64,000 bases of DNA from a virus: positions 1-64,000 of the IMG/VR virus record IMGVR_UViG_3300027668_000010; one strand, 5' to 3'. Shown piece by piece: positions 911 to 55,833 of the stretch; the stretch's first letter is position 1, and the number at the start of each line of letters is the position of its first letter. A program made the position numbers and the translations under genes. The notes under the pieces are model-generated. The model did no database searches. It was not told where the DNA came from and saw only the letters and a list, made by a program, of their open reading frames with translations.

Positions 911-919
911 ATATTTATA
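911..919 (+). promoter_or_regulatory. Late-type promoter box ATATTTATA
   Basis: ATATTTATA lies 51 bases upstream of the bS21 start. It matches the box found in front of most structural genes in this window. It abuts the terminator hairpin at 919-955, so initiation near 926 would avoid forming the full hairpin. Confidence 0.45.
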
Positions 920-955
920 TACACCGGTCATTAGTTTGGCTGGTGTATTTTTTTT
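919..955 (+). terminator. Intrinsic terminator
   Basis: An inverted repeat ATACACC...GGTGTAT around an ATTAGTTT loop is followed by a run of eight T. It sits directly after the gene ending at 891 and closes the first head operon. Confidence 0.75.
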
Positions 956-969
956 AATAAAACAATTAT

Positions 970-1224
970 ATGCAAGAACGAAAAAGTAACTTTAAAAAAG
1001 TCCGTAGAGATGATATGGAAGTAATGGGTAATGCAATGGCAGTGAAAGTCGTTAACGGTCAAATTGAACCAGCTCTTAAATTATGGAAACGTAAGATGAA
1101 AGATAGTGGTAAATTAGATGAAGTTAAAGATAGACGAGAATTCATAAAACCATCAGCAGTTAATCGAAGAAAACGTGCAGAGGCTATACGAACTCAATGG
1201 CACAGAACTCAAGAAGATAAGTAA
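970..1224 (+). CDS. rpsU: Phage-encoded ribosomal protein bS21
   Basis: An 84-residue basic protein whose residues 24-76 follow the bS21 pattern: a first helix with ALKLWKRKMKDSGKLDEV (35-52), then RREFIKPSAVNRRKR (55-69). The FIKPS segment is the form I recall from Bacteroidota bS21. About 20 N-terminal residues extend beyond the usual bS21 start, and internal Met at 16, 19 and 23 are alternative starts. bS21 sits on the 30S platform next to the 16S rRNA 3' end; in Flavobacterium it helps sequester the anti-Shine-Dalgarno. In my recalled alignment the tyrosine that contacts the anti-SD corresponds to Arg74 here. The gene's own leader is AT-rich with no Shine-Dalgarno, unlike the capsid genes that follow. 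Phage bS21 genes are known in several large phages, so the family call is firm; any effect on translation is inference. Confidence 0.88.
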   Translation: MQERKSNFKKVRRDDMEVMGNAMAVKVVNGQIEPALKLWKRKMKDSGKLDEVKDRREFIKPSAVNRRKRAEAIRTQWHRTQEDK

Positions 1225-1299: not shown

Positions 1300-1375
1300 T
1301 AACGTTATTTTATATAAACAATTATATTAAGATTTACAATAATCTTATTTCCCCAAAAAATTTAGGAGAATTATT

Positions 1376-2347: not shown

Positions 2348-2377
2348 TTTTTAAATAAATAAAAACGGAGAATAAAC

Positions 2378-4024
2378 ATGGATTTAAAAAACATCCTTAG
2401 TGAAGGTTCTTCTCATACCGCTAGATTGTCAGAAGCTACAAGAGCTTTGGCAGGGAAATGGGAAAAAACTGGTCTTTTAGAAGGAATTGACAACGAAGTT
2501 GAAAAAGCAGGCGTTGCAACACTTTTAGAAAACCAAGCAAGACAATTAGTAAAAGAAGCATCTTCTACTGGAACAGCCGCAAACGGTGAAGAATGGGCTG
2601 GAGTAGCTCTACCATTAGTAAGACGTATCTTTTCTGAAATAGTTGCTAAAGATTTCGTATCTGTACAACCAATGAACTTACCATCAGGTCTAGTATTTTA
2701 TCTAGATTTCAAATATGGTACTGCTCAACCAGGTTTTGCAACAGGTGCTGGAAAAGATTCACAACTTGATTCTGTATTCGGTGTTACCGATACTACTGCA
2801 GATGCATCTGGTGGACTTTATGGTGCTGGAAGATTTGGTTATACAATCAATGACCAAGTTACTGCAACTCAATTGAGTTCATCAACTTCAGCAACAGCTG
2901 CAAATAAATTTGCAACTGGTTCAGCTGCATCAGCTGCTACATGGAATTATGATACTGCATTTAGTTCATCTTACCATACGAAGTTTAACGCAACACTACC
3001 AACTGTATATACAATTGCCGTTCCTACTGCATCTATGCCAGGTTTAGACCTTAAAGGTATTAGAGCATTTAGAATTATTGGTACAGATGTTTCTGACCAA
3101 TTCCCACAATTCGCTGTATTAGATGGTGGAGATGTTAGATTTGTAGTAGAAGGAAGTGCAGTACATAATGATAGTATTACAGTTAAGTATCACAAACAAC
3201 CAACTGATATTACTCGTGGTGATTTTGAAGCTACTTCAACTGCTAATCCTGAAGTTGATGTTGATATTCCAGAATTAAATGTTGAAATGAAATCAATTCC
3301 AATCGTTGCTAAGACACGTAAGTTGAAAGCACAATGGACTCCTGAATTCGCTCAAGATTTGAACGCTTATCATAGTATCGATGCAGAAGCTGAATTAACT
3401 TCTATGTTATCAGAATATATCTCACAAGAGATTGATTTTGAAATCTTAGATATGTTGATTACTGATGCTAAGACTACTGGATATTGGTCAACGCAAGTTG
3501 GACGTGAATGGAATGGTACAGCATTTGCTGATTATTCTTCTACTGCAGCTGCAGCTAGTGCATTCGGACAGGGAGCTTGGTTTCAAACTCTTGGAACAGT
3601 TATCGCTGGTGTATCTAATAAGATTCATCAAAAAACACTTAGAGGTGGAGCTAATTTCATAGTTGTATCTCCAGATGTTGCAACGATAATTGAATCTATT
3701 CCAGGTTATGCTAGTGGTGCTGACAACGGTGATGCACAATTTGCATTCGGTGTTCAGAAGATTGGTGCTTTGAATAGCAGATTTACTGTATATAAGAATC
3801 CTTATATGAAAGAGAACGTAATACTAATGGGTTATAGAGGAAATCAATTCCTTGAAACTGGCGCTGTTTATGCACCATATATTCCACTTATTATGACTCC
3901 TTTAGTATATGACCCTAAAAACTTCACTCCACGTAAAGGTGTTATGACACGTTACGCTAAGCAAATGCTAAGAGGTGAGTTCTACGGAAAAGTATACGTT
4001 GATTCATTAAACAAAATTCAGTAA
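2378..4024 (+). CDS. 23: Major capsid protein, gp23-like
   Basis: A 548-residue HK97-fold capsid protein of the T4 group. The N-terminal segment (about 1-65) is a helical prosequence. It is followed by the conserved LVRRIFSEIVAKDFVSVQPM (about 81-100), the counterpart of the T4 gp23 LVRR...LVSVQP segment. The middle (about 130-270) is a Ser/Thr/Ala-rich insertion. The conserved C-terminal part runs from VDIPELNVEMKSIPIVAKTR to the Met/Arg-rich end. In T4, gp23 is cleaved by the gp21 protease; a Glu-terminated site near residue 60 (LVKE then ASST) is a candidate but not proven. ATG 2378 follows CGGAG. A UUCG-capped terminator ends the unit. Confidence 0.96.
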   Translation: MDLKNILSEGSSHTARLSEATRALAGKWEKTGLLEGIDNEVEKAGVATLLENQARQLVKEASSTGTAANGEEWAGVALPLVRRIFSEIVAKDFVSVQPMNLPSGLVFYLDFKYGTAQPGFATGAGKDSQLDSVFGVTDTTADASGGLYGAGRFGYTINDQVTATQLSSSTSATAANKFATGSAASAATWNYDTAFSSSYHTKFNATLPTVYTIAVPTASMPGLDLKGIRAFRIIGTDVSDQFPQFAVLDGGDVRFVVEGSAVHNDSITVKYHKQPTDITRGDFEATSTANPEVDVDIPELNVEMKSIPIVAKTRKLKAQWTPEFAQDLNAYHSIDAEAELTSMLSEYISQEIDFEILDMLITDAKTTGYWSTQVGREWNGTAFADYSSTAAAASAFGQGAWFQTLGTVIAGVSNKIHQKTLRGGANFIVVSPDVATIIESIPGYASGADNGDAQFAFGVQKIGALNSRFTVYKNPYMKENVILMGYRGNQFLETGAVYAPYIPLIMTPLVYDPKNFTPRKGVMTRYAKQMLRGEFYGKVYVDSLNKIQ

Positions 4025-5246: not shown

Positions 5247-8200
5247 ATGGCATCTAAGAAAGTAAATATAACAAATACTGATAATAAAGTAACTGTAACC
5301 AACTCAAATAATAAAATTGAGGTTATAGATACTAACGTTGCATCAAATATTGAAGTTACCCGACCCGTAACTACAATAGTTGAAGTAAAATCACCAGGCC
5401 CACAAGGTGCAGTTGGTATCACAGGCCCATCTGGGTCACAAGGTATTCAAGGAACTGCAGGCGTTGATGGTGGTGGGGTATTTACACTAATTGAAGGTGG
5501 AATAATATACGCAACCACATCATCTCTACAAATATCAGGTTCACTATATGTAAGTGGTTCATATTTTGGAGATGGTTCAAACCTAACAGGCGTTGGTGGA
5601 GCAGCTGGAACAATAAGTGGTTCGGCTCAAATCATAGCACATTTACCTGTTGGAACAATAAGTGGTTCAACGCAATTTGATACACTTACACTTCCATTTA
5701 CAGGTTCATTCACTGGGTCTTTCGCTGGAGATGGTTCTCAACTAACCTCTATTCCATCCCAAACTGCTAACGACTTCACAACAATATTAAAAAATAAACT
5801 TGATGCAATCGAAGCTAGTGCTGATGTAACTGATGCAACTAACGTATTAGCAAATTTACCTGCTGGAACAATTAGTAGTTCAGCACAATTACCATCTGGT
5901 ATTATAAGTGGTTCAACGCAATTTGATACACTTACACTTCCATTTACAGGTTCATTCACTGGGTCTTTCGCTGGAGATGGTTCTCAACTAACCTCTATTC
6001 CATCCCAAACTGCTAACGACTTCACAACAATATTAAAAAATAAACTTGATGCAATCGAAGCTAGTGCTGATGTAACTGATGCAACTAACGTATTAGCAAA
6101 TTTACCTGCTGGAACAATTAGTAGTTCAGCACAATTACCATCTGGTATTATAAGTGGTTCAACGCAATTTGATACACTTACACTTCCATTTACTGGGTCT
6201 TTTACAGGCTCATTTATTGGGGATGGTTCGTTATTAACTTCATTACCTACACAAACTGCAAATGACTTTACAAATACTCTAAAAAGCAAATTAGATGCAA
6301 TTGAAGCATCCGCAGACGTAACCGATACAACTAATGTAACATCTGCTGGGGCATTGATGGATTCTGAGGTTTCTGCATTAGCATTAATTAAAGGATTAAC
6401 CGCAGCATCAATTTCTGGTTCGTTTACTTCTGTAAGTTCTTCAATAGCATCCGATGTTGCAACCAATACCGCAAAAGTAACAAACGTAAGTACTAATTTA
6501 ACTAAAACAACTGCTACAGCTCAAATAACAATTAATTCATCTGATGGGGATAACGTAGTTATCGCAGAAGCAAGTGATTCTATTGCCGGCTTAATGAGTA
6601 CTACCCATCACGATAAACTTGATGGAATCGAAGCATTAGCAGATGTAACAGATACAACCAATGTATTATCTTCTTTAGTTGGGAGTGAATTGGTAGTTAA
6701 AACAATAACGGCTGAAGAATATGTAGTAAGTTCATCAGTAACTCATATGACTACATCATTTAGTAGTGGTTCTACAATATTTGGCGATGATATATTAGAT
6801 ACACATCAATTTACAGGTTCATTATTTGTTAGTGGTTCATTATATGGTGATGGTTCAAATTTAACAGGTGTTGGTGGAGCAGCTGGAACGATAAGTAGTT
6901 CAGCACAATTACCAACTGGTATTATAAGTGGTTCAACTCAATTCGATACACTCACTCTTCCATTTACAGGCTCATTCACTGGGTCTTTTAATGGTGATGG
7001 TAGTGGAATCACAGGAATTAGTGGAGCATCAGATGAAAACTTTACATCGACATTAAAAAACAAATTAGATGGAATTGAAGCATCCTCTGATGTAACAGAT
7101 ACAGCAAATGTATTAGCAAATTTACCTGCTGGTATTATAAGTGGTTCAACTCAATTTAATACATTAACAACTCCATTTACAGGTTCATTTACAGGTTCAT
7201 ATTTTGGAGATGGTTCAAACCTAACAGGCGTTGGTGGAGCAGCTGGAACAATTAGTAGTTCAGCTCAATTACCAAGTGGAATCATAAGTAGTTCAGCTCA
7301 ATTACCAAGTGGAATCATAAGTGGCTCAACACAATTCGATACACTTACTCTTCCATTTACAGGCTCATTCACTGGGTCTTTCGCTGGAGATGGCTCGTTA
7401 TTAACTTCATTACCTACTCAGACAGCAAATGATTTTACAAATACTTTAAAAACTAAATTAGATGCCATTGAAGCATCCGCAGATGTAACAGATACGGCAA
7501 ATGTATTAGCAAATTTACCTGCTGGTATCATAAGTGGTTCAACACAATTGCCAATTGGAATCATAAGTGGTTCAACACAATTCGATACATTAACCCTTCC
7601 ATTTACAGGTTCATTTACTGGGTCTTTCGCTGGAGATGGGAGTGGATTAACCTCTCTTCCAACCCAAACAGCAAATGATTTTACAAATACTTTAAAAACT
7701 AAATTAGATGCCATTGAAGCATCCGCAGATGTAACAGATGCAACTAATGTAGTAGCAGCACTTGATACGTTAGGAGTTATAAGTGGTTCGGCTCAAGTCT
7801 TAGCACAATTACCTGATGGAACGATAAGTGGCTCAACGCAATTCGATACATTAACACTCCCATTTACTGGGTCTTTTACAGGCTCATTTGTTGGCGATGG
7901 GAGTGGATTAACCTCTCTTCCAGCCCAAACTGCAAATGATTTTACAACAACATTAAAAAACAAATTAGATGCCATTGAGGCATCCGCAGACGTAACCGAT
8001 GCAGCTAATGTATTATCATCATTGCCAGCTGGGGTAGTAAGTAGTTCAGCATTTCCATTAGGTGTTAATATTACAGGCGGAGCTATAATTACAGGTTCAA
8101 CATCGATATATCGTTCTGGTTCTATTGGTGATACGACTATATTTAGTGTTGAAGGTGGACTAGGTACTTTATTCTCAGTAACAGATGAACTAACAGGTTC

Positions 8201-11177
8201 TCTATTCTCAGTAAATGATATATCTGGTATTCCGATTTTTGAAGTATTCTCTGATAATACAGTTAAAATAGGAACTCATAATCAAGAAGGTATTGTAGTA
8301 ACTGGGAGTAATATAGTAATAACAGGTTCATTATTTGTTAGTGGTTCATTATATGGAGATGGTTCTCAACTAACCTCTCTTCCAACCCAAACTGCAAATG
8401 ATTTTACAACAACATTAAAAAACAAATTAGATGCCATTGAAGCATCAGCAGATGTAACCGATGCAACTAACGTTGTTGCTGCACTTGATACATTGGGTGT
8501 AATAAGTGGCTCAACGCAATTTGATACATTAACTCTTCCATTTACAGGTTCATTTACAGGTTCATTTGCTGGAGATGGTAGTGGGTTAACTTCAGTTCCA
8601 ATTCCAAGTGGAACGATAAGTGGTTCGGCTCAATTCGATACATTAACTCTCCCATTTACAGGTTCATTCACTGGGTCTTTCTCTGGCGATGGAAGTGGGT
8701 TAACCTCTCTTCCAACTCAGACTGCAAATGACTTTACAAATACTCTAAAAAACAAATTAGATGCCATTGAAGCATCCGCAGATGTAACAGATGCAACTAA
8801 CGTTGTTGCTGCACTTGATACATTGGGTGTAATAAGTGGTTCGGCTCAAGTCTTAGCACAATTACCTGATGGAACGATAAGTGGTTCAACTCAATTCGAT
8901 ACATTAACTCTTCCATTTACAGGTTCGTTTACTGGGTCTTTCTCTGGCGATGGAAGTGGATTAACCTCTCTTCCAACCCAAACTGCAAATGATTTTACAA
9001 CAACATTAAAAAACAAATTAGATGCCATTGAAGCATCCGCAGATGTAACCGATGCAACTAATGTATTATCTTCTTTAGTTGGGAGTGAATTGGTAGTTAA
9101 AACAATAACGGCTGAAGAATATGTAGTAAGTTCATCGGTAACTCATATGACTACATCATTCAGTAGCGGCTCCACAATATTTGGTGATGATATATTAGAT
9201 ACACATCAATTTACAGGTTCATTATTTGTTAGTGGTTCAATACATAATGTTGGTAGTGTAACCTCATCATTTTTTATAGGAGATGGTTCAGCACTAACCT
9301 CACTACCTACTCAAACTGCAAATGATTTCACAACAACATTAAAAAATAAATTAGATGCGATTGAAGCATCCGCAGATGTAACAGATGCAACTAATGTAGT
9401 TGCGGCACTTGATACATTGGGTGTAATAAGTGGTTCAACACAATTCGATACATTAACCCTTCCATTTACAGGTTCATTTACTGGGTCTTTCGCTGGAGAT
9501 GCTAGTGGGTTAACTTCAGTTCCAATTCCAAGTGGTACAATAAGTGGCTCAACGCAATTCGATACATTAACACTCCCATTTACTGGGTCTTTTACAGGCT
9601 CATTTGTTGGTGATGGAAGTGGATTAACCTCTCTTCCAACCCAAACTGCTAATGACTTTACAAATACTCTAAAAAGCAAATTAGATGCAATTGAAGCATC
9701 CGCAGACGTAACCGATGCAACTAATGTAACTTCCGCAGGTGCATTAATGGATTCGGAAGTTACAAATCTAGCATTAGTAAAAGCATTAGCAAGTGGTATT
9801 TCCGATGGAAATGTTTTAACGGCTAATGATGCAGTAGCAGACGATGATTTTTTAAGAATCAACGGAACGGAAGTAGAAGGTAGAACTGTAGCTCAAGTAT
9901 TAAGTGATTTGAATGTTGAAGCTGGTGCAGATGTAACAGATGCTACTAATGTAGTAGCAGCACTTGATACATTGGGTGTAATAAGTGGTTCGGCTCAATT
10001 CGATACATTAACTCTCCCATTTACAGGTTCATTCACTGGGTCTTTTACTGGAGATGGAAGTGGGTTAACCTCTCTTCCAACTCAGACTGCAAATGACTTT
10101 ACAAATACTCTAAAAAGCAAATTAGATGCAATTGAGGCATCCGCAGACGTAACAGATGCTACTAATGTAGTAGCAGCACTTGATACGTTAGGAGTTATAA
10201 GTGGCTCAACGCAATTTGATACACTTACACTTCCATTTACAGGTTCATTTACAGGTTCATTTGTTGGTGATGGGAGTGGATTAACCTCTCTTCCAACCCA
10301 AACTGCAAATGACTTTACAAATACTCTAAAAAGCAAATTAGATGCAATTGAAGCATCAGCAGATGTAACCGATGCTACTAATGTAACCGCTGCTGGGGCA
10401 TTAATGGATTCGGAAGTTACAAATCTCGCATTAGTAAAAGCATTAGCAAGTGGTGTTTCAAATGGAAATGTTTTAGTTGCTAACGCAGCAGTAGCAGATA
10501 ATGATTTCTTAAAAATTGATGGAACATCTGTTGAAGGTAGAACTGTAGCTCAAGTATTAAGTGATTTGAATGTTGAAGCTGGTGCAGATGTAACCGATGC
10601 AGCAAATGTATTATCATCATTGCCAGCTGGGGTAGTATCATCATCAACATTTCCATTTACAGGTGATGCTCAAATCACAGGTTCATTAATACTATCGGGT
10701 TCGGCTGGTACTGTATTCGAAGTAATAGGTTCATCAGGTTCACTATTCGAAATTACTGACTCATTTGAAGGTACATTATTTTCAGTTGCAGATATATCAG
10801 GTATTCCACAATTTGGAGTAACCGATGCTGGTGTCGCAACCATTGGCTCTACACCCGTATCAATATATACAACTGCACAAATTGCATCAACCCAAGCCAC
10901 AACAAACGAATCCGTATATACGTTATCATCATCCTCATTTGATGGTGCTTGGTTTGATTATACTATAATTAGTTCTTCTAATATGAGAGCTGGAAACGTT
11001 ATGAGTATTTGGGAAGCTGGAACTACGAATATTAATTTTACAGAAACGACAACAACCGATATTGGTGATACGACAGGTGTTGTTATATCAACAGTAATCA
11101 CCGGGTCGGAAATAGCACTAAGAGTTAATACACCAACTGATAAATGGAAGATTAAAACAATCGTAAGAAGCATATAA
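5247..11177 (+). CDS. Giant repetitive tail fibre, 1976 residues
   Basis: A very long adhesin-like fibre. Residues about 1-50 are a beta-rich attachment region, followed by a short collagen-like stretch (GPQGAVGITGPSGSQGIQG, about 51-69). The rest is dominated by about 15 copies of a module centred on FDTLTLPFTGSFTGSF, GDGSGLTSLP and TANDFTTTLKNKLDAIEASA, about 75-85 residues each. Different inserts interrupt the modules: an LVGSELVVKTITAEEY block occurs twice, and an IYRSGSIGDTTIFSVEGG block is shared with the fibre at 12611. The C-terminus (about 1850-1976) is non-repetitive and could be the receptor-binding tip. It has no S74 chaperone of its own. Function in host binding is inferred from architecture and neighbours. 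Confidence 0.88.
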   Translation: MASKKVNITNTDNKVTVTNSNNKIEVIDTNVASNIEVTRPVTTIVEVKSPGPQGAVGITGPSGSQGIQGTAGVDGGGVFTLIEGGIIYATTSSLQISGSLYVSGSYFGDGSNLTGVGGAAGTISGSAQIIAHLPVGTISGSTQFDTLTLPFTGSFTGSFAGDGSQLTSIPSQTANDFTTILKNKLDAIEASADVTDATNVLANLPAGTISSSAQLPSGIISGSTQFDTLTLPFTGSFTGSFAGDGSQLTSIPSQTANDFTTILKNKLDAIEASADVTDATNVLANLPAGTISSSAQLPSGIISGSTQFDTLTLPFTGSFTGSFIGDGSLLTSLPTQTANDFTNTLKSKLDAIEASADVTDTTNVTSAGALMDSEVSALALIKGLTAASISGSFTSVSSSIASDVATNTAKVTNVSTNLTKTTATAQITINSSDGDNVVIAEASDSIAGLMSTTHHDKLDGIEALADVTDTTNVLSSLVGSELVVKTITAEEYVVSSSVTHMTTSFSSGSTIFGDDILDTHQFTGSLFVSGSLYGDGSNLTGVGGAAGTISSSAQLPTGIISGSTQFDTLTLPFTGSFTGSFNGDGSGITGISGASDENFTSTLKNKLDGIEASSDVTDTANVLANLPAGIISGSTQFNTLTTPFTGSFTGSYFGDGSNLTGVGGAAGTISSSAQLPSGIISSSAQLPSGIISGSTQFDTLTLPFTGSFTGSFAGDGSLLTSLPTQTANDFTNTLKTKLDAIEASADVTDTANVLANLPAGIISGSTQLPIGIISGSTQFDTLTLPFTGSFTGSFAGDGSGLTSLPTQTANDFTNTLKTKLDAIEASADVTDATNVVAALDTLGVISGSAQVLAQLPDGTISGSTQFDTLTLPFTGSFTGSFVGDGSGLTSLPAQTANDFTTTLKNKLDAIEASADVTDAANVLSSLPAGVVSSSAFPLGVNITGGAIITGSTSIYRSGSIGDTTIFSVEGGLGTLFSVTDELTGSLFSVNDISGIPIFEVFSDNTVKIGTHNQEGIVVTGSNIVITGSLFVSGSLYGDGSQLTSLPTQTANDFTTTLKNKLDAIEASADVTDATNVVAALDTLGVISGSTQFDTLTLPFTGSFTGSFAGDGSGLTSVPIPSGTISGSAQFDTLTLPFTGSFTGSFSGDGSGLTSLPTQTANDFTNTLKNKLDAIEASADVTDATNVVAALDTLGVISGSAQVLAQLPDGTISGSTQFDTLTLPFTGSFTGSFSGDGSGLTSLPTQTANDFTTTLKNKLDAIEASADVTDATNVLSSLVGSELVVKTITAEEYVVSSSVTHMTTSFSSGSTIFGDDILDTHQFTGSLFVSGSIHNVGSVTSSFFIGDGSALTSLPTQTANDFTTTLKNKLDAIEASADVTDATNVVAALDTLGVISGSTQFDTLTLPFTGSFTGSFAGDASGLTSVPIPSGTISGSTQFDTLTLPFTGSFTGSFVGDGSGLTSLPTQTANDFTNTLKSKLDAIEASADVTDATNVTSAGALMDSEVTNLALVKALASGISDGNVLTANDAVADDDFLRINGTEVEGRTVAQVLSDLNVEAGADVTDATNVVAALDTLGVISGSAQFDTLTLPFTGSFTGSFTGDGSGLTSLPTQTANDFTNTLKSKLDAIEASADVTDATNVVAALDTLGVISGSTQFDTLTLPFTGSFTGSFVGDGSGLTSLPTQTANDFTNTLKSKLDAIEASADVTDATNVTAAGALMDSEVTNLALVKALASGVSNGNVLVANAAVADNDFLKIDGTSVEGRTVAQVLSDLNVEAGADVTDAANVLSSLPAGVVSSSTFPFTGDAQITGSLILSGSAGTVFEVIGSSGSLFEITDSFEGTLFSVADISGIPQFGVTDAGVATIGSTPVSIYTTAQIASTQATTNESVYTLSSSSFDGAWFDYTIISSSNMRAGNVMSIWEAGTTNINFTETTTTDIGDTTGVVISTVITGSEIALRVNTPTDKWKIKTIVRSI
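5658..6149 (+). repeat. Perfect 246-bp tandem duplication inside the fibre gene
   Basis: Positions 5658-5903 and 5904-6149 read as identical 246-bp copies (82 codons each), with a third, diverging copy starting at 6150. Related copies continue to about 10345. Perfect identity beside diverged copies suggests very recent duplication or gene conversion. Confidence 0.85.
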
Positions 11178-18611: not shown

Positions 18612-18631
18612 ATAAACAATAGGAGATATTA

Positions 18632-19786
18632 ATGGCAGTACAAATTCCAATATGGCCAGGTTCATCATCATTCTTTCCAGATATGACACCGTTTGGACAT
18701 TATGATAATGATTATGAGTTTCAGCAAGATGCAGATAAAGTATCATCTTGGTGTGCCAAACGATTGGGTTATCCAATTGTTGATATTGAATTACAAGACA
18801 TTAACTTCTATACTTGCTTTGAAGAAGCAGTTACAGAATATTCAACACAAGTCAATCAATTTAACATTAGAGAGAATCTTTTAAATTTAAAAGGCTCTCC
18901 GACTGGTTCTAACATTTCACAAACTCAACTTGATGGAAATATGGGCGGGTTAGTATCACTTGCAAAGGATTATGGTTCGGAAGTAGGTAGTGGTGGTAGA
19001 TTAACATATTATACAGGCTCATTCAGTACTGTGGCAGGTCAGCAAGTTTATGATTTAACTACATCATCAGTTGCTTCATTAGAAAGTGGTACTGCTGGAG
19101 TTGATAAATTTGAAATTAAGAAGATGTTACACGATGCACCACCTGCTATGGTAAGATACTTTGACCCATTAGCCGGTGCAGGTGTTGGTTCTGATAATCT
19201 AATGGATGCATTTGGATGGGGTAACTATTCTCCAGGCGTTTCATTTATGATGCAACCACTTTATAGCGATTTACTTAAAGTTCAAGCAATTGAGTTCAAT
19301 GATATGATTCGTAGGTCACAATATGGATTCGATATTCAAAATAATAGAATTAGAATATTCCCAATCCCAACAGTAGCATACAAAATACACTTTCATTACA
19401 TTTTAGAGGATGAACGAAGTAATGGTATTATTTCTAATTCAGTAGTATCTGATTATTCAAATGTACCTTATGATAGGATTACTTATACAAAAGTTAATCA
19501 TGTAGGAAAGCGTTGGATTCATAAATACTCATTAGCATTAGCAAAAGAAATGTTAGGTGCAGTAAGAGCTAAGTTTAGTTCAGTACCAATTCCTAACTCA
19601 GAAATAACATTAGATGGGGCTGATTTAAGAGGTGAAGCATCAGCAGAAAAAGAAATATTAATTTCAGAATTAAGAGAAAACTTAGAAGCAACTTCTCGTA
19701 AATCATTATTAGAAGCCCAAAAGGATGAATCTGAATTTATGGAATCAACTCTAAGTCGAATCCCTAGAGCTGTTTACATAGGATAA
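18632..19786 (+). CDS. 13: Neck protein, gp13-like
   Basis: A 384-residue protein. The N-terminal third contains YDNDYEFQQDADKVSSWCAK, LGYPIVDIELQDINFYTCFE and EAVTEYSTQVNQF, a pattern I associate with T4-like neck/connector proteins of marine phages. It is the first gene of a gp13-gp14-gp15 order matching T4. It should join the head vertex to the tail. It is longer than T4 gp13 (309 residues). ATG 18632 has AGGAG. The call depends partly on the better-supported gp15 downstream. Confidence 0.6.
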   Translation: MAVQIPIWPGSSSFFPDMTPFGHYDNDYEFQQDADKVSSWCAKRLGYPIVDIELQDINFYTCFEEAVTEYSTQVNQFNIRENLLNLKGSPTGSNISQTQLDGNMGGLVSLAKDYGSEVGSGGRLTYYTGSFSTVAGQQVYDLTTSSVASLESGTAGVDKFEIKKMLHDAPPAMVRYFDPLAGAGVGSDNLMDAFGWGNYSPGVSFMMQPLYSDLLKVQAIEFNDMIRRSQYGFDIQNNRIRIFPIPTVAYKIHFHYILEDERSNGIISNSVVSDYSNVPYDRITYTKVNHVGKRWIHKYSLALAKEMLGAVRAKFSSVPIPNSEITLDGADLRGEASAEKEILISELRENLEATSRKSLLEAQKDESEFMESTLSRIPRAVYIG

Positions 19787-21504: not shown

Positions 21505-21540
21505 AGTATATAAACAATAAGAAATTAATAGGAGAATAAA

Positions 21541-23928
21541 ATGGCAGAAAGAATAGTAAGTCCTGGAGTATTTACCAGAGAAAAGGACTTGTCGTTTCTA
21601 CCCCAAGGAATTGGTGAAATTGGTGCAGCATTAATAGGGTCAACTGTAAAAGGACCTGCGTTTGTACCAACGACCGTACAATCGTATCAAGAGTTTCAAC
21701 AAGTATTCGGAGGATTGACAGAAGATTCATACCTACCTTATACTGCACAAGCTTATTTAGAAGATGCAGGTACAGCAACAATCGTTAGGGTATTGGGACA
21801 AGATGGGTATACTTTAGAAAACCCAATAGCATTACAAATTTCATCATCAGCGCTTGGTATTAAAACTGTAGCAGTATTACACCCAACAACGGCTGTAACA
21901 TCTGATGTTGATGTATTTAGTGGACCACTACCTGTATCTGAAAACACAGGTTCGGAGTTTTTATTAACAATTACAGGTTCAACTGTAACAGGAAAGGTAT
22001 TTTCCTCTTCATTAAATCCAACAAACGATAACTACATAACTAAAGCATTAGGATTCTCCCCAAGAGGTTCTGAAAACGCATATCTTTTATCAAACTTTAA
22101 AATATTTCAATCAGAATCAATCGCAACAGGCGAAACTGTAGCAGTAACTGCAGTAACCAGTTCTGATATTGATTATACTAAAGCATACACAGAAGCTGCA
22201 ACACCATTTATTACATCTCAAAAAGTTGGTGGAAACACTACTAATTTGTTTAAGTTCCATACATTATCACATGGTACTGCTACAAACTATGAGTTTAAAA
22301 TTGGTATTCAAGATATTAAAATAGCAGGTTCAGTACCTGGCTCTGAATATGGTTCATTTACAGTAGTTGTACGAAGAGTTGACCAGGACAAAATTGTTGG
22401 TTCACCATTCGTAGGAGTAGTTGATTCGGATATCAGACCAAATTTAGTTGAAACGTTTCAAGGATGTAACTTAAACCCTGATTCTCCAAACTATATAGCT
22501 AGAGTAATTGGTGACAAATATATTACAGTTGATGCAAATGGTAAATTATCAACAAATGGTGATTATAACAACCTATCAGCAAATATTAGAGTTGAAGTAG
22601 CTACCGCAGTTGGTAATGGTGCAGTTGATGTATCATTAGTACCATTCGGATTCGCAGCATTGCAAAATCCTTACGGAACAGCATTTACATTACCAAATCC
22701 AGCATTTGTAGCAAATCAACAAATCAATAGTTCATATAACGCTAAAAAGTTTTTTGGATTTAATTTTGATTTATCTAAAACGGATAACGTAAATTATTTA
22801 TCAGTATTTCCTGATTCCGCAACAGCAACAGCTGGAACGGCATTTTACTTAGGTGATTATAACCAAGAAAGTGGAGCTAATTTCCCATCATCTGCAGCTG
22901 CAAATAGTGGTTCTATTTCATTATCAGATGTAACTACATCAGTTAACTCTCGTAAATTTATAGTACCATTTCAAGGTGGTTTTGATGGATTCAAACCAAA
23001 TAGAATTGTAAGTACTACTGGTGATATTACTGCTGGAAATACGCAAGGATATGATTGTTCATCAAATACAGCGACTGGAACGGTAGCATTTAGAAAAGCT
23101 ATTAACTCAGTATCTAATCCTGATGAATTTGATATTAATATGTTAGTATTGCCAGGGTTAATCCACAGATTACATTCATCTGTTACTACATTCGCTAAAG
23201 ATATGTGTGAAGACAGACAGGATGCATTCTTTATAATGGATGCTGGAGCATACGCTGATTCAATATCAACAATTGTAAACACAGTTCAACCATTTGATTC
23301 AAATTATGTAGCATCTTATCACCCATGGGTTAAGATACTAAATTCAGATAAAAACAAACCTGTATGGGTTCCACCATCTGTAGTTCTACCGGGTGTTATT
23401 GCATTTAACGATTCAGTAGCAGCCGAATGGTTCGCACCAGCTGGTTTAAATCGTGGTGGATTAACTAACGTTATTGAAGCTAAGAGTAGATTGACTAGAG
23501 TTGAGAGAGATGCACTTTACGAAGGTAGAGTAAATCCTATCGCAACGTTCCCTGGTCAAGGAGTTACTGTATTTGGACAAAAAACCTTACAAGCTAAACC
23601 ATCCGCATTGGATAGAATTAATGTAAGAAGATTATTAATCGCAGTTAAGAAGTTTATCGCATCTTCAACTCGTTACTTAGTATTTGAAAATAATACAGCA
23701 GCGACACGAAATCGTTTCTTATCAATCGTAAATCCTTATTTGGAATCAATCCAACAAAGACAAGGTTTATTCGCATTTAGAGTAGTTATGGATGATACCA
23801 ACAACACTCCTGATGTAATTGATAGAAACATTATGGTAGGTGAGATTTTCTTACAACCTGCAAAAACAGCAGAATTCATTGTACTTGATTTCAACGTACT
23901 ACCGACTGGCGCTGCATTCCCATCTTAA
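21541..23928 (+). CDS. 18: Contractile tail sheath protein, gp18-like
   Basis: A 795-residue sheath protein, longer than T4 gp18 (659). The N-terminus MAERIVSPGVFTREKDLS, then GAALIGSTVKGPAFVPT and SYQEFQQVFGG, is the standard sheath opening. The C-terminal domain contains VNVRRLLIAVKKFIASSTRY-type text (the stretch begins at about residue 695), VFENNTAATRNRF and GEIFLQPAKTAEFIVLDFN, typical of the conserved inner domain. Extra length lies in surface insertions (about residues 90-480). It has a strong AGGAG and its own promoter and terminator. Confidence 0.96.
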   Translation: MAERIVSPGVFTREKDLSFLPQGIGEIGAALIGSTVKGPAFVPTTVQSYQEFQQVFGGLTEDSYLPYTAQAYLEDAGTATIVRVLGQDGYTLENPIALQISSSALGIKTVAVLHPTTAVTSDVDVFSGPLPVSENTGSEFLLTITGSTVTGKVFSSSLNPTNDNYITKALGFSPRGSENAYLLSNFKIFQSESIATGETVAVTAVTSSDIDYTKAYTEAATPFITSQKVGGNTTNLFKFHTLSHGTATNYEFKIGIQDIKIAGSVPGSEYGSFTVVVRRVDQDKIVGSPFVGVVDSDIRPNLVETFQGCNLNPDSPNYIARVIGDKYITVDANGKLSTNGDYNNLSANIRVEVATAVGNGAVDVSLVPFGFAALQNPYGTAFTLPNPAFVANQQINSSYNAKKFFGFNFDLSKTDNVNYLSVFPDSATATAGTAFYLGDYNQESGANFPSSAAANSGSISLSDVTTSVNSRKFIVPFQGGFDGFKPNRIVSTTGDITAGNTQGYDCSSNTATGTVAFRKAINSVSNPDEFDINMLVLPGLIHRLHSSVTTFAKDMCEDRQDAFFIMDAGAYADSISTIVNTVQPFDSNYVASYHPWVKILNSDKNKPVWVPPSVVLPGVIAFNDSVAAEWFAPAGLNRGGLTNVIEAKSRLTRVERDALYEGRVNPIATFPGQGVTVFGQKTLQAKPSALDRINVRRLLIAVKKFIASSTRYLVFENNTAATRNRFLSIVNPYLESIQQRQGLFAFRVVMDDTNNTPDVIDRNIMVGEIFLQPAKTAEFIVLDFNVLPTGAAFPS

Positions 23929-23992: not shown

Positions 23993-24029
23993 GTAAAGAA
24001 ATAAAGTTGAATAACAACGGAGAAATTAA

Positions 24030-24518
24030 ATGGCACAATTATTAGACCCAACAGAAGTAATGTTTACATCGTTCGAACCAAAAATGTCGAATCGATTTAT
24101 TATGTATATAGAGGGAATCCCAGCATACTTAGTAAAAGCAGCAGGTAGACCAGAAATAACAAACGGTAAAGTCACTATCGACCACATTAACGTTAAAAGA
24201 TATGTAAAAGGTAGAAGTGAGTGGAGTGATTTAACAATTACACTATATGACCCAGTAGTTCCTTCAGCAGCACAAGCAGCTATGGAATGGGTAAGATTAC
24301 ACCATGAATCTGTAACAGGACGAGATGGATACTCTGATTTCTACAAAAAAGATATCACATTTAACAGTTTGGGTCCTGTTGGTGATAAAGTAGAAGAGTG
24401 GAAACTAAAAGGTGCATTTATTCAATCAGCAAAATTCTCAGATATGGATTATACTGGAGAAGATATCGCAACTGTAGATTTAACACTTACATTTGATTAC
24501 GCAATACTAAATTTCTAA
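24030..24518 (+). CDS. 19: Tail tube protein, gp19-like
   Basis: A 162-residue tube protein, essentially the length of T4 gp19 (163). It contains MFTSFEPKMSNRFIMYIEGI, the VKAAGRPEI segment, WSDLTITLYDPVVPSAAQA and VDLTLTFDYAILNF, the hallmark strands of the T4-like tube. It forms hexameric rings inside the sheath. CGGAG precedes ATG 24030. It is bracketed by terminators, as expected for a highly expressed single gene. Confidence 0.95.
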   Translation: MAQLLDPTEVMFTSFEPKMSNRFIMYIEGIPAYLVKAAGRPEITNGKVTIDHINVKRYVKGRSEWSDLTITLYDPVVPSAAQAAMEWVRLHHESVTGRDGYSDFYKKDITFNSLGPVGDKVEEWKLKGAFIQSAKFSDMDYTGEDIATVDLTLTFDYAILNF

Positions 24519-54615: not shown

Positions 54616-55833
54616 ATGGATTTTTGGGATGCAGAGCCAGAGAAACCTAAATTTGATTTTGAGAAGCAGAAGAGTGAGTTAATCCAAAATATGGATTATC
54701 TCGCTACCATGTCTGTTCAAGAGCAAGTTTTGTATAAGAAGTGGGTAGAATTACAGGATGTTAAAATGATTAGGGATAAATCTCAAATCGCAGCAATGTA
54801 TGATACTCAATGGGCTCCAACTGATATTAACAATTTGGAGCAAACTATTAAAGAGATTGAAGAGTTAGAACCTTATGTTGAAATTTTGGAAGATACTAAA
54901 GATGCAGCTAAATGGACATATGCTAGACGTATGATTCATTCTATGGATTTTACTGCTAATCCCGGCCGCAATGTTAAAATCAATGTTAAAGATAAAACGA
55001 GTGGTAAACTCTTAGGACAAATATCATTAGCATCAGATGTAACATCAATGGCAGTTAGAGATAACTACATTGGTTGGACTAAGGATGATAAGTTTAAGAA
55101 AGGAAAGCTAAACCATACTACAATTGCATCAACTATTGTTTGTACACAACCGTTAGGTTATAATTTCTTAGGTGGAAAGCTCGTTGCTATGATGACAACA
55201 GTTCCGGACGTAAGAGAATTTTGGAAGAAAAAGTATGGACAGACTTTGGTAGGTGTTGGTACAACTTCATTATATGGGATTCATTCTCAATATAATGGAA
55301 TTCCTCACTTTAAAACATTGGGTGAATCAGCAGGAAAGATTTCTCTGAAACCTGATGATAAGTTCTACGAACCTTGGCATCAGCATATTAAAGAAGAACA
55401 TGCCGAATGGTATGAAACCGCAATCACTAATGAACGAATTCGTAATGGTGCTAGTATGGGTACTGGTGAAGGTGCTAGTGGACCTGTAAGTGGTATCAAA
55501 CAAAAGATTCTTGGAAAGATTTTCAAAGAATGTGGTATCAAACAATCAGCTTACCACCACGGATTCCACAGGGGAGTTTATTTGGCAATGATGTACGATA
55601 ATGGACAAGCATTCTTACGAGATGAAATTGAAGAATCTGAATTGGTGATGAAAAAGAAGTTTGAGGATGGAGTTCCTTATATTAATAATTGGTGGAAGAA
55701 GAAAGCCATCAAACGTTACACTAAATTACACTCAGAGGGTAGGTTAAAGCCTGAGCATTTATTTTATTTGGAAGCAATTGGAATGAGTTGGGAAAAGATG
55801 AAGGAAACTTACTTAAAAGAAATAGGAAGATAA
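54616..55833 (+). CDS. DUF4338-like (DruA-like) protein
   Basis: A 405-residue protein. Residues about 1-125 are helical. The region about 128-245 reads GKLLGQISLASDVTSMAVRD, then NYIGW, a LNHTTIASTIVCTQPLGYNF block, GGKLVAMMTTVPDV and FWKKKYGQTLVGVGTTSLYG, the order of conserved blocks I know from DUF4338, the domain of DruA in the Druantia defence system. The C-terminal part carries HHGFHRGVYLAMMYDNG. The gene lies between clamp and clamp-loader genes, so a replication-linked role is as likely as a defence-related one. Biochemical function unknown. Confidence 0.55.
   Translation: MDFWDAEPEKPKFDFEKQKSELIQNMDYLATMSVQEQVLYKKWVELQDVKMIRDKSQIAAMYDTQWAPTDINNLEQTIKEIEELEPYVEILEDTKDAAKWTYARRMIHSMDFTANPGRNVKINVKDKTSGKLLGQISLASDVTSMAVRDNYIGWTKDDKFKKGKLNHTTIASTIVCTQPLGYNFLGGKLVAMMTTVPDVREFWKKKYGQTLVGVGTTSLYGIHSQYNGIPHFKTLGESAGKISLKPDDKFYEPWHQHIKEEHAEWYETAITNERIRNGASMGTGEGASGPVSGIKQKILGKIFKECGIKQSAYHHGFHRGVYLAMMYDNGQAFLRDEIEESELVMKKKFEDGVPYINNWWKKKAIKRYTKLHSEGRLKPEHLFYLEAIGMSWEKMKETYLKEIGR

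Follow-up and report, generated by a model that had tools for sequence, protein, structure and literature searches.

Ribosomal protein bS21 has a known part in how the Bacteroidia choose their start sites. In Flavobacterium johnsoniae, it helps to hold the anti-Shine-Dalgarno (anti-SD) sequence on the ribosomal platform, and an altered bS21 frees the anti-SD (PMC9976891). Tyr54 stacks on A1534, and the Y54A substitution or loss of the C-terminus leads to higher translation of Shine-Dalgarno (SD) reporters. The Bacteroidia are SD-blind, and rpsU autoregulation in this group is believed to depend on an SD of extraordinary strength (PMC9976891). Furthermore, bS21 is encoded by phages, and its late expression and the idea of a ribosome take-over have already been published (PMC6375957, PMC9723584). 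Chen et al. 2022 studied 61 phages with a bS21, and every one of them has an aromatic residue at position 54 (PMC9723584). The bS21 of pelagiphage HTVC008M is cited in PMC9976891 and PMC9723584 as entering E. coli ribosomes, and the extension of rpS21 in huge phages is predicted to aid ribosome binding or initiation on phage mRNAs (PMC7162821).

The bS21 gene and its leader

Here, we analyze a stretch of 64,000 nucleotides (the window), which is positions 1 to 64,000 of IMG/VR record IMGVR_UViG_3300027668_000010, an uncultivated virus. The ATG at position 970 is the start codon of an 84-aa ORF (970-1224, + strand), the single bS21 gene in the whole 100,504-base record. Its identity, as given in a preliminary description of this DNA, was borne out by a match of residues 25-76 to Ribosomal_S21 (PF01165; E=1.9e-12, 47 bits versus a curated cut-off of 27) and by a second match of the product to PHROG 21469, "ribosomal protein S21". 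The gene and its leader contain the following features:

912-919 (+): TATTTATA, late-promoter-like element of the bS21 leader (enrichment upstream of genes)
919-955 (+): hairpin followed by a U-run, bS21 leader (conserved in the window's clade)
970-1224 (+): phage bS21 gene, 84 aa, SD-less start (PF01165; upstream motif scan)
970-1029 (+): basic N-terminal extension covering residues 1-20 (aligned with 49 phage homologues and F. johnsoniae bS21)
1189-1191 (+): Arg74 codon CGA, aligned with F. johnsoniae Tyr54 (ungapped alignment)
1198-1200 (+): Trp77 codon, three residues past Arg74 in the same predicted helix (alignment and structure prediction)

The preliminary description had placed an arginine where the host bS21 has the tyrosine that contacts the anti-SD. 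With F. johnsoniae bS21 (chain 7jil_z) as the reference, this is what we found: an ungapped alignment from the FIKPS block sets Arg74 opposite Tyr54, a multiple alignment also puts this non-aromatic residue at the contact position, and the anti-SD role given there for Tyr54 agrees with PMC9976891. As a statement about the host, the claim does not carry over, because the record is an uncultivated virus without an assigned host and the host bS21 is thus not readable here. The protein lacks the aromatic residue (Tyr) at position 54 of a Bacteroidia-type bS21, and since that position is aromatic throughout the set of Chen et al., Arg74 is a true departure from it. An aromatic residue is not absent from this face of the helix, because Trp77 lies with Arg74 in the same predicted helix (H61-83); 19 of the 35 Arg/Lys-type relatives have an aromatic at the Trp77 position. 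The predicted structure is confident and helical (mean pLDDT 86.7). A fold search of the model against the PDB gave a B. subtilis ribosome chain as its best match, at a non-significant E=1.1.

The N-terminal extension, earlier estimated at about 20 residues, measures exactly 20 relative to F. johnsoniae bS21. A turn of the [IV][PM]G type, characteristic of the window's clade, closes it, and extensions of the same kind are conserved among the clade's members.

The element TATTTATA occurs upstream of genes 14 times in this record versus 2.4 expected, its sites lie mostly at structural genes, and it is enriched before genes in every related T4-like genome tested except the partial G011. The T4-type late motif TATAAATA, tried as a candidate, was hardly enriched in this record (7 versus 4.7 expected). 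Within the leader (908-957), a terminator-like element, consisting of the covarying hairpin and the U-run, stands directly behind the late-promoter-like TATTTAT, about 20 nt before the AUG. The same arrangement is present in L015, L016, L017, L019, L023, L047 and other members of the clade. TATTTAT is invariant across 18 bS21 leaders, and 6 of the 12 hairpin pairs show compensatory change.

A motif scan found no SD upstream of the window's bS21 gene, and the extended SD seen before the bS21 gene in many Flavobacteriales is likewise missing upstream of 970. Among relatives, only 11 of 77 distinct extended bS21 genes have an SD of their own, all 11 in the clade of phages like "Microcystis phage Mel-JY01".

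Shine-Dalgarno motifs in the record and its relatives

The bS21 gene lies two genes upstream of the gene for the Gp23 capsid protein, on the same (+) strand as the structural genes. These form a T4-like block with a Glu-rich scaffold-position gene, capsid, PhoH, tail fibre, sheath and tube. A relationship to T4-like phages and to Immutovirus is indicated by 16 ORFs of the record that match structural proteins of Flavobacterium phage immuto; by capsid protein, the nearest named phages are Mel-JY01 (60%) and immuto (56%). The start contexts divide the window as follows:

1376-31566 (+): late structural block, mostly SD-bearing (SD count per gene)
1364-1368 (+): AGGAG, SD of the Glu-rich scaffold-position gene 1376-2347
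2367-2370 (+): GGAG, SD of the major capsid gene 2378-4024
2378-4024 (+): major capsid protein Gp23 (PF07068, E=1.5e-77)
18621-18625 (+): AGGAG, SD of the head-completion homologue 18632-19786
21530-21534 (+): AGGAG, SD of the tail sheath gene 21541-23928
24019-24022 (+): GGAG, SD of the tail tube gene 24030-24518
34208-62728 (+): replication, metabolism and glycosyltransferase genes, mostly SD-less (start contexts)

Counting genes of at least 80 aa, and taking as an SD any match of at least 4 nt containing GG, we found an SD in 20 of the 25 late-block genes (1.3-33 kb) versus 14 of 76 elsewhere (p=4e-8). Over the whole record, it was present in only 3 of the 17 homologues of immuto replication/metabolism genes. 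In the structural block, the motifs take the forms AGGAG, GGAG and ATAGGA, are 4-6 nt long and stand about 7 nt before the AUG. Such motifs, properly spaced, above background and late rather than early, are consistent with SD-driven late genes. The record is therefore split into SD-bearing late and SD-less early genes, and bS21 is the SD-less exception inside the late block.

Three other genes of the window have unusual products. The scaffold-position gene (1376-2347), in front of the capsid gene, is very Glu-rich with MDSEEEMEMDSEEE repeats. The 1976-aa protein of 5247-11177 has many near-identical GDGSxLTSLPTQTANDFT repeats and is probably a tail fibre. In the replication region, 54616-55833 encodes a DruA-family protein (PF14236, E=4.7e-21); this family is known from Druantia defence.

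Four sets of 80 loci gathered around related capsid genes yielded 145 distinct capsid proteins. We called a bS21 extended when it had at least 10 residues beyond that of F. johnsoniae (one protein truncated at a contig end was placed in this class), and we classed a locus as without bS21 when a stretch of at least 4.5 kb before the capsid gene contained none. The capsid gene had an SD in 79 of 80 cases with an extended bS21, in 6 of 59 without bS21 and in 0 of 6 with a short bS21. Similarly, among flanking late genes (capsid gene excluded), the SD was present in 71% of 743 next to an extended bS21, 14% of 468 without bS21 (excluding the discordant L368/L375 clade, itself at 17%) and 7% of 27 with a short one, and only the extended class showed a sharp motif peak at -13 to -10. 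Thus, an extended bS21 is associated with SD-bearing late genes across the relatives.

The long genomes behaved in the same way. Nine with an extended bS21 had an SD on 111/164 structural and 50/165 replication/metabolism genes, compared with 11/71 and 4/91 in three that lack bS21 (immuto, G012 and G013). Genes for scaffold, capsid, sheath and tube, whose expression is presumably the strongest, nearly always have an SD; it is frequent at ssb and groEL, and less so at terminase and portal. The late genes of immuto are almost all SD-less (4/30 with SD). In immuto, G012 and G013, SD-like motifs are rarer before genes (7-9%) than before internal ATGs (19-26%), as if they were avoided. On the other hand, T4 has an SD on 22/30 early or middle and 25/27 late genes, and the pelagiphage on 19/27 and 8/12, respectively. 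Because both use the SD throughout, the late/early split is no general T4-like feature. Misassigned starts were considered as an artefact and rejected, as the contrast persists if a gene may start at any one of its first three ATGs.

The primary sigma factor of the Bacteroidota uses TTTG / TAnnTTTG promoters (PMC6847099, PMC9723704). A scan for TTG-N19-21-TAnnTTTG within 120 nt upstream of genes gave 16 versus 0.9 expected in G001 (of the window's clade), 17 versus 1.1 in G005, 3 versus 0.55 in G010 and 3 versus 0.40 in this record, where they lie outside the window, at 85-96 kb of the record. Most often the spacer measures exactly 20 nt, and the genes behind these promoters in G001 and G005 include DNA polymerase, helicase and primase. 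The same scan found none in the pelagiphage and one in the T4 segment. No enrichment was seen in G004, G006 and G008, which have an extended bS21, or in immuto; since a Flavobacterium phage and several extended-bS21 genomes show none, the absence of the motif says little. From the promoters, we infer that the window's phage probably infects a member of the Bacteroidota. A host search in genome bins returned three matches (two unclassified bins and one Maricaulis bin) and no direct host link.

Two further observations concern these promoters. Many -7 boxes of early genes end only 2-7 nt short of the first ATG (in G001, G005 and, in this record, at 85035 and 91294), pointing either to leaderless mRNAs or to starts assigned too far upstream. 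Mel-JY01 (PP395634.1; L096, L298-L300, L426) has 18 Bacteroidota-type promoters versus 1.1 expected, which makes its named cyanobacterial host doubtful.

Genes behind TATTTATA have an SD in 87 of 162 cases in the extended-bS21 genomes versus 0 of 59 in the bS21-less ones (p=2e-16). Within the extended-bS21 genomes, the same 87/162 compares with 5/38 behind Bacteroidota promoters (p=4e-6), so that two transcription classes match two translation classes.

How many times did this association arise? On the capsid tree, the lack of an extended bS21 and SD-less capsid genes coincide on several distinct branches (the immuto clade; L051 with L302-L304; L301; L336 with L337, L344 and L347; L365; L376). 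Four well-supported independent contrasts were obtained, of which 3.7 on average agree and 0 oppose (p=0.125), and widening the sample raised the supported contrasts in this phylogenetic pair test only from 3 to 4. The association is thus numerically strong, yet it comprises few independent events. One clade is discordant (L368, L370, L372, L375, L404 and L420): it has AAGGA-type SDs at the capsid and scaffold genes alone, with its other genes at background (17%), and its records, fragments of 9-70 kb, yielded no bS21. Furthermore, Mel-JY01 carries SDs across its whole genome, its bS21 gene included.

Readings of the late-gene motifs

Could a virus re-tune its host's ribosome partway through infection? 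These data suggest that it may. Within this phage group, late-gene SDs accompany an extended bS21 encoded by the phage itself and are almost confined to such phages. The reading that we favor, with a probability of about 55%, is that the phage-encoded, N-terminally extended bS21 makes host ribosomes use the SD late in infection. The general form of this idea, in which phages of SD-blind bacteria convert ribosomes to SD reading mid-infection by means of an extended bS21, and the late genes, but neither the early genes nor the bS21 gene, are written for the altered ribosome, appears to us evenly balanced.

According to this proposal, the early, SD-less mRNAs would be readable by ordinary Bacteroidota ribosomes with a sequestered anti-SD. 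The phage bS21, SD-less and with its own late-promoter leader, would also be made by unmodified ribosomes; the missing SD fits, as a protein needed before SD mRNAs become readable would have to be made without one. It would then displace the host's own copy from the 30S platform, and the extension and the diverged body of the protein, rather than Arg74 alone, would make the anti-SD available. The capsid, scaffold, sheath and tube mRNAs would then be initiated preferentially by means of their short SDs (4-6 nt), which unmodified Bacteroidia ribosomes would hardly read. Ribosome entry, anti-SD release, the order of events and the host are what we infer from the genomes.

Host range might account for the SDs instead, if extended-bS21 phages infect SD-reading hosts, bS21-less ones infect SD-blind Flavobacteriia, and bS21 is carried for some other reason. 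Immuto, a cultured, bS21-less relative, does infect Flavobacterium, G004, G006 and G008 have no Bacteroidota promoters, and Mel-JY01 uses the SD throughout. However, within single genomes the early and bS21 genes are SD-less and the late genes SD-bearing, unlike in T4 or the pelagiphage, and Bacteroidota promoters are carried by G001, G005, G010 and this record, and the Bacteroidia are SD-blind (PMC9976891). We therefore regard host range as a serious but distinctly less probable explanation.

It is rather unlikely that the phage depletes or blocks the host bS21, so that bS21-less ribosomes translate the late genes and the phage protein is a late replacement and not the switch. F. johnsoniae ribosomes without bS21 do read SDs, and phage removal of the host bS21 has been speculated on (PMC9976891). 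However, the SDs occur where a bS21 is encoded beside the capsid gene, bS21-less ribosomes favor unusually strong SDs while those of the phage measure 4-6 nt, and no depleting factor was identified in this analysis.

The preliminary description had suggested that ribosomes with the phage bS21 might expose the anti-SD, and that Arg74 in place of Tyr54 would be the reason. The first part gains strong, if indirect, support from the late-gene SDs, which accompany an extended bS21 and are missing in bS21-less sister phages. The second part did not hold up. Y54A raises SD use in F. johnsoniae (PMC9976891) and Arg is the rule in the window's clade, and all 36 loci with an Arg/Lys54 extended bS21 have a capsid-gene SD. 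However, so do 42 of the 43 loci with a Tyr/Phe54 extended bS21, among them L015 of the window's own clade (capsid protein 84% identical), which has Tyr at 54 and keeps AGGAG. Conversely, L050/L376 has Arg at 54 with an extension of only seven residues, and its capsid gene is SD-less. The capsid genes next to short Tyr54 phage bS21s (L105, L109, L111, L115 and L120) are SD-less too, and G015, with a short His54 bS21, has an SD on 5% of its genes. Position 54 is therefore not the determinant, as Tyr/Phe54 proteins keep the SDs; in addition, Trp77 may take over the stacking. It is the N-terminal extension, and not position 54, that tracks the SD, and this basic extension is the best candidate for the active part. 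Exposure of the anti-SD by Arg74 is, in our view, even less likely than depletion.

Finally, it is scarcely credible that AGGA/GGAG is a signal other than an SD, for instance a site of mRNA processing or of repressor binding: an RNase of T4 does cleave at GGAG (a database record note) and the motif shifts with the pairing register by less than one base per step (slope 0.22 for all 4-mers), but the spacing to the AUG is tight, also between adjoining operon genes, the variants are pieces of AAAGGAGGTG, and their mean positions (-12.8, -12.1 and -11.6; from -12.8 to -11.5 with 5-mers) move in the direction that anti-SD pairing predicts.

The pattern joins two questions, namely why many phages carry bS21 and why the Bacteroidota keep an anti-SD that they hardly use. 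If an extended phage bS21 does make ribosomes read the SD, a virus would be imposing a different rule of start-site selection on its host, and a protein that changes the initiation code of the ribosome would also offer a means of controlling expression through the SD in the Bacteroidota.

Comparison with known systems

Our literature search, which covered mainly freely available journal papers, found no earlier link between phage bS21 and late-gene SDs. The bS21 genes of the Bacteroidetes phages of Chen et al. 2022 lie, like the one here, in or near the core structural block, and their products were proposed to replace the host bS21 and favor phage mRNAs late (PMC9723584). However, those genes are on the strand opposite to the structural genes and have an aromatic residue at position 54 (61/61), whereas the gene here is on the same (+) strand and combines Arg74 with an extension and SD-bearing late genes. 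The huge-phage rpS21 of Al-Shayeb et al. 2020 has a basic N-terminal extension, as here, but no link to late-gene SDs was drawn, the SD remark in that paper concerning rpS1 (PMC7162821). In pelagiphage Mosig EXVC030M, the relative of HTVC008M that we examined, the bS21 is unextended, its gene has its own strong SD, and early and late genes alike are SD-bearing.

The cultured relative immuto (Immutovirus, MW353176) has a homologous structural block with a capsid protein 56% identical; unlike this phage, it has no bS21 and its late genes are SD-less. As for the logic of control, rpsU autoregulation in F. johnsoniae resembles the mechanism proposed here in that the reading of SD mRNAs depends on the state of bS21 on the 30S subunit (PMC9976891). 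In that system, SD reading rises when bS21 is lost, and the bS21 gene itself carries the strong SD; here, on the other hand, a variant bS21 would be supplied, its own gene is SD-less, and the SDs are on other late genes.
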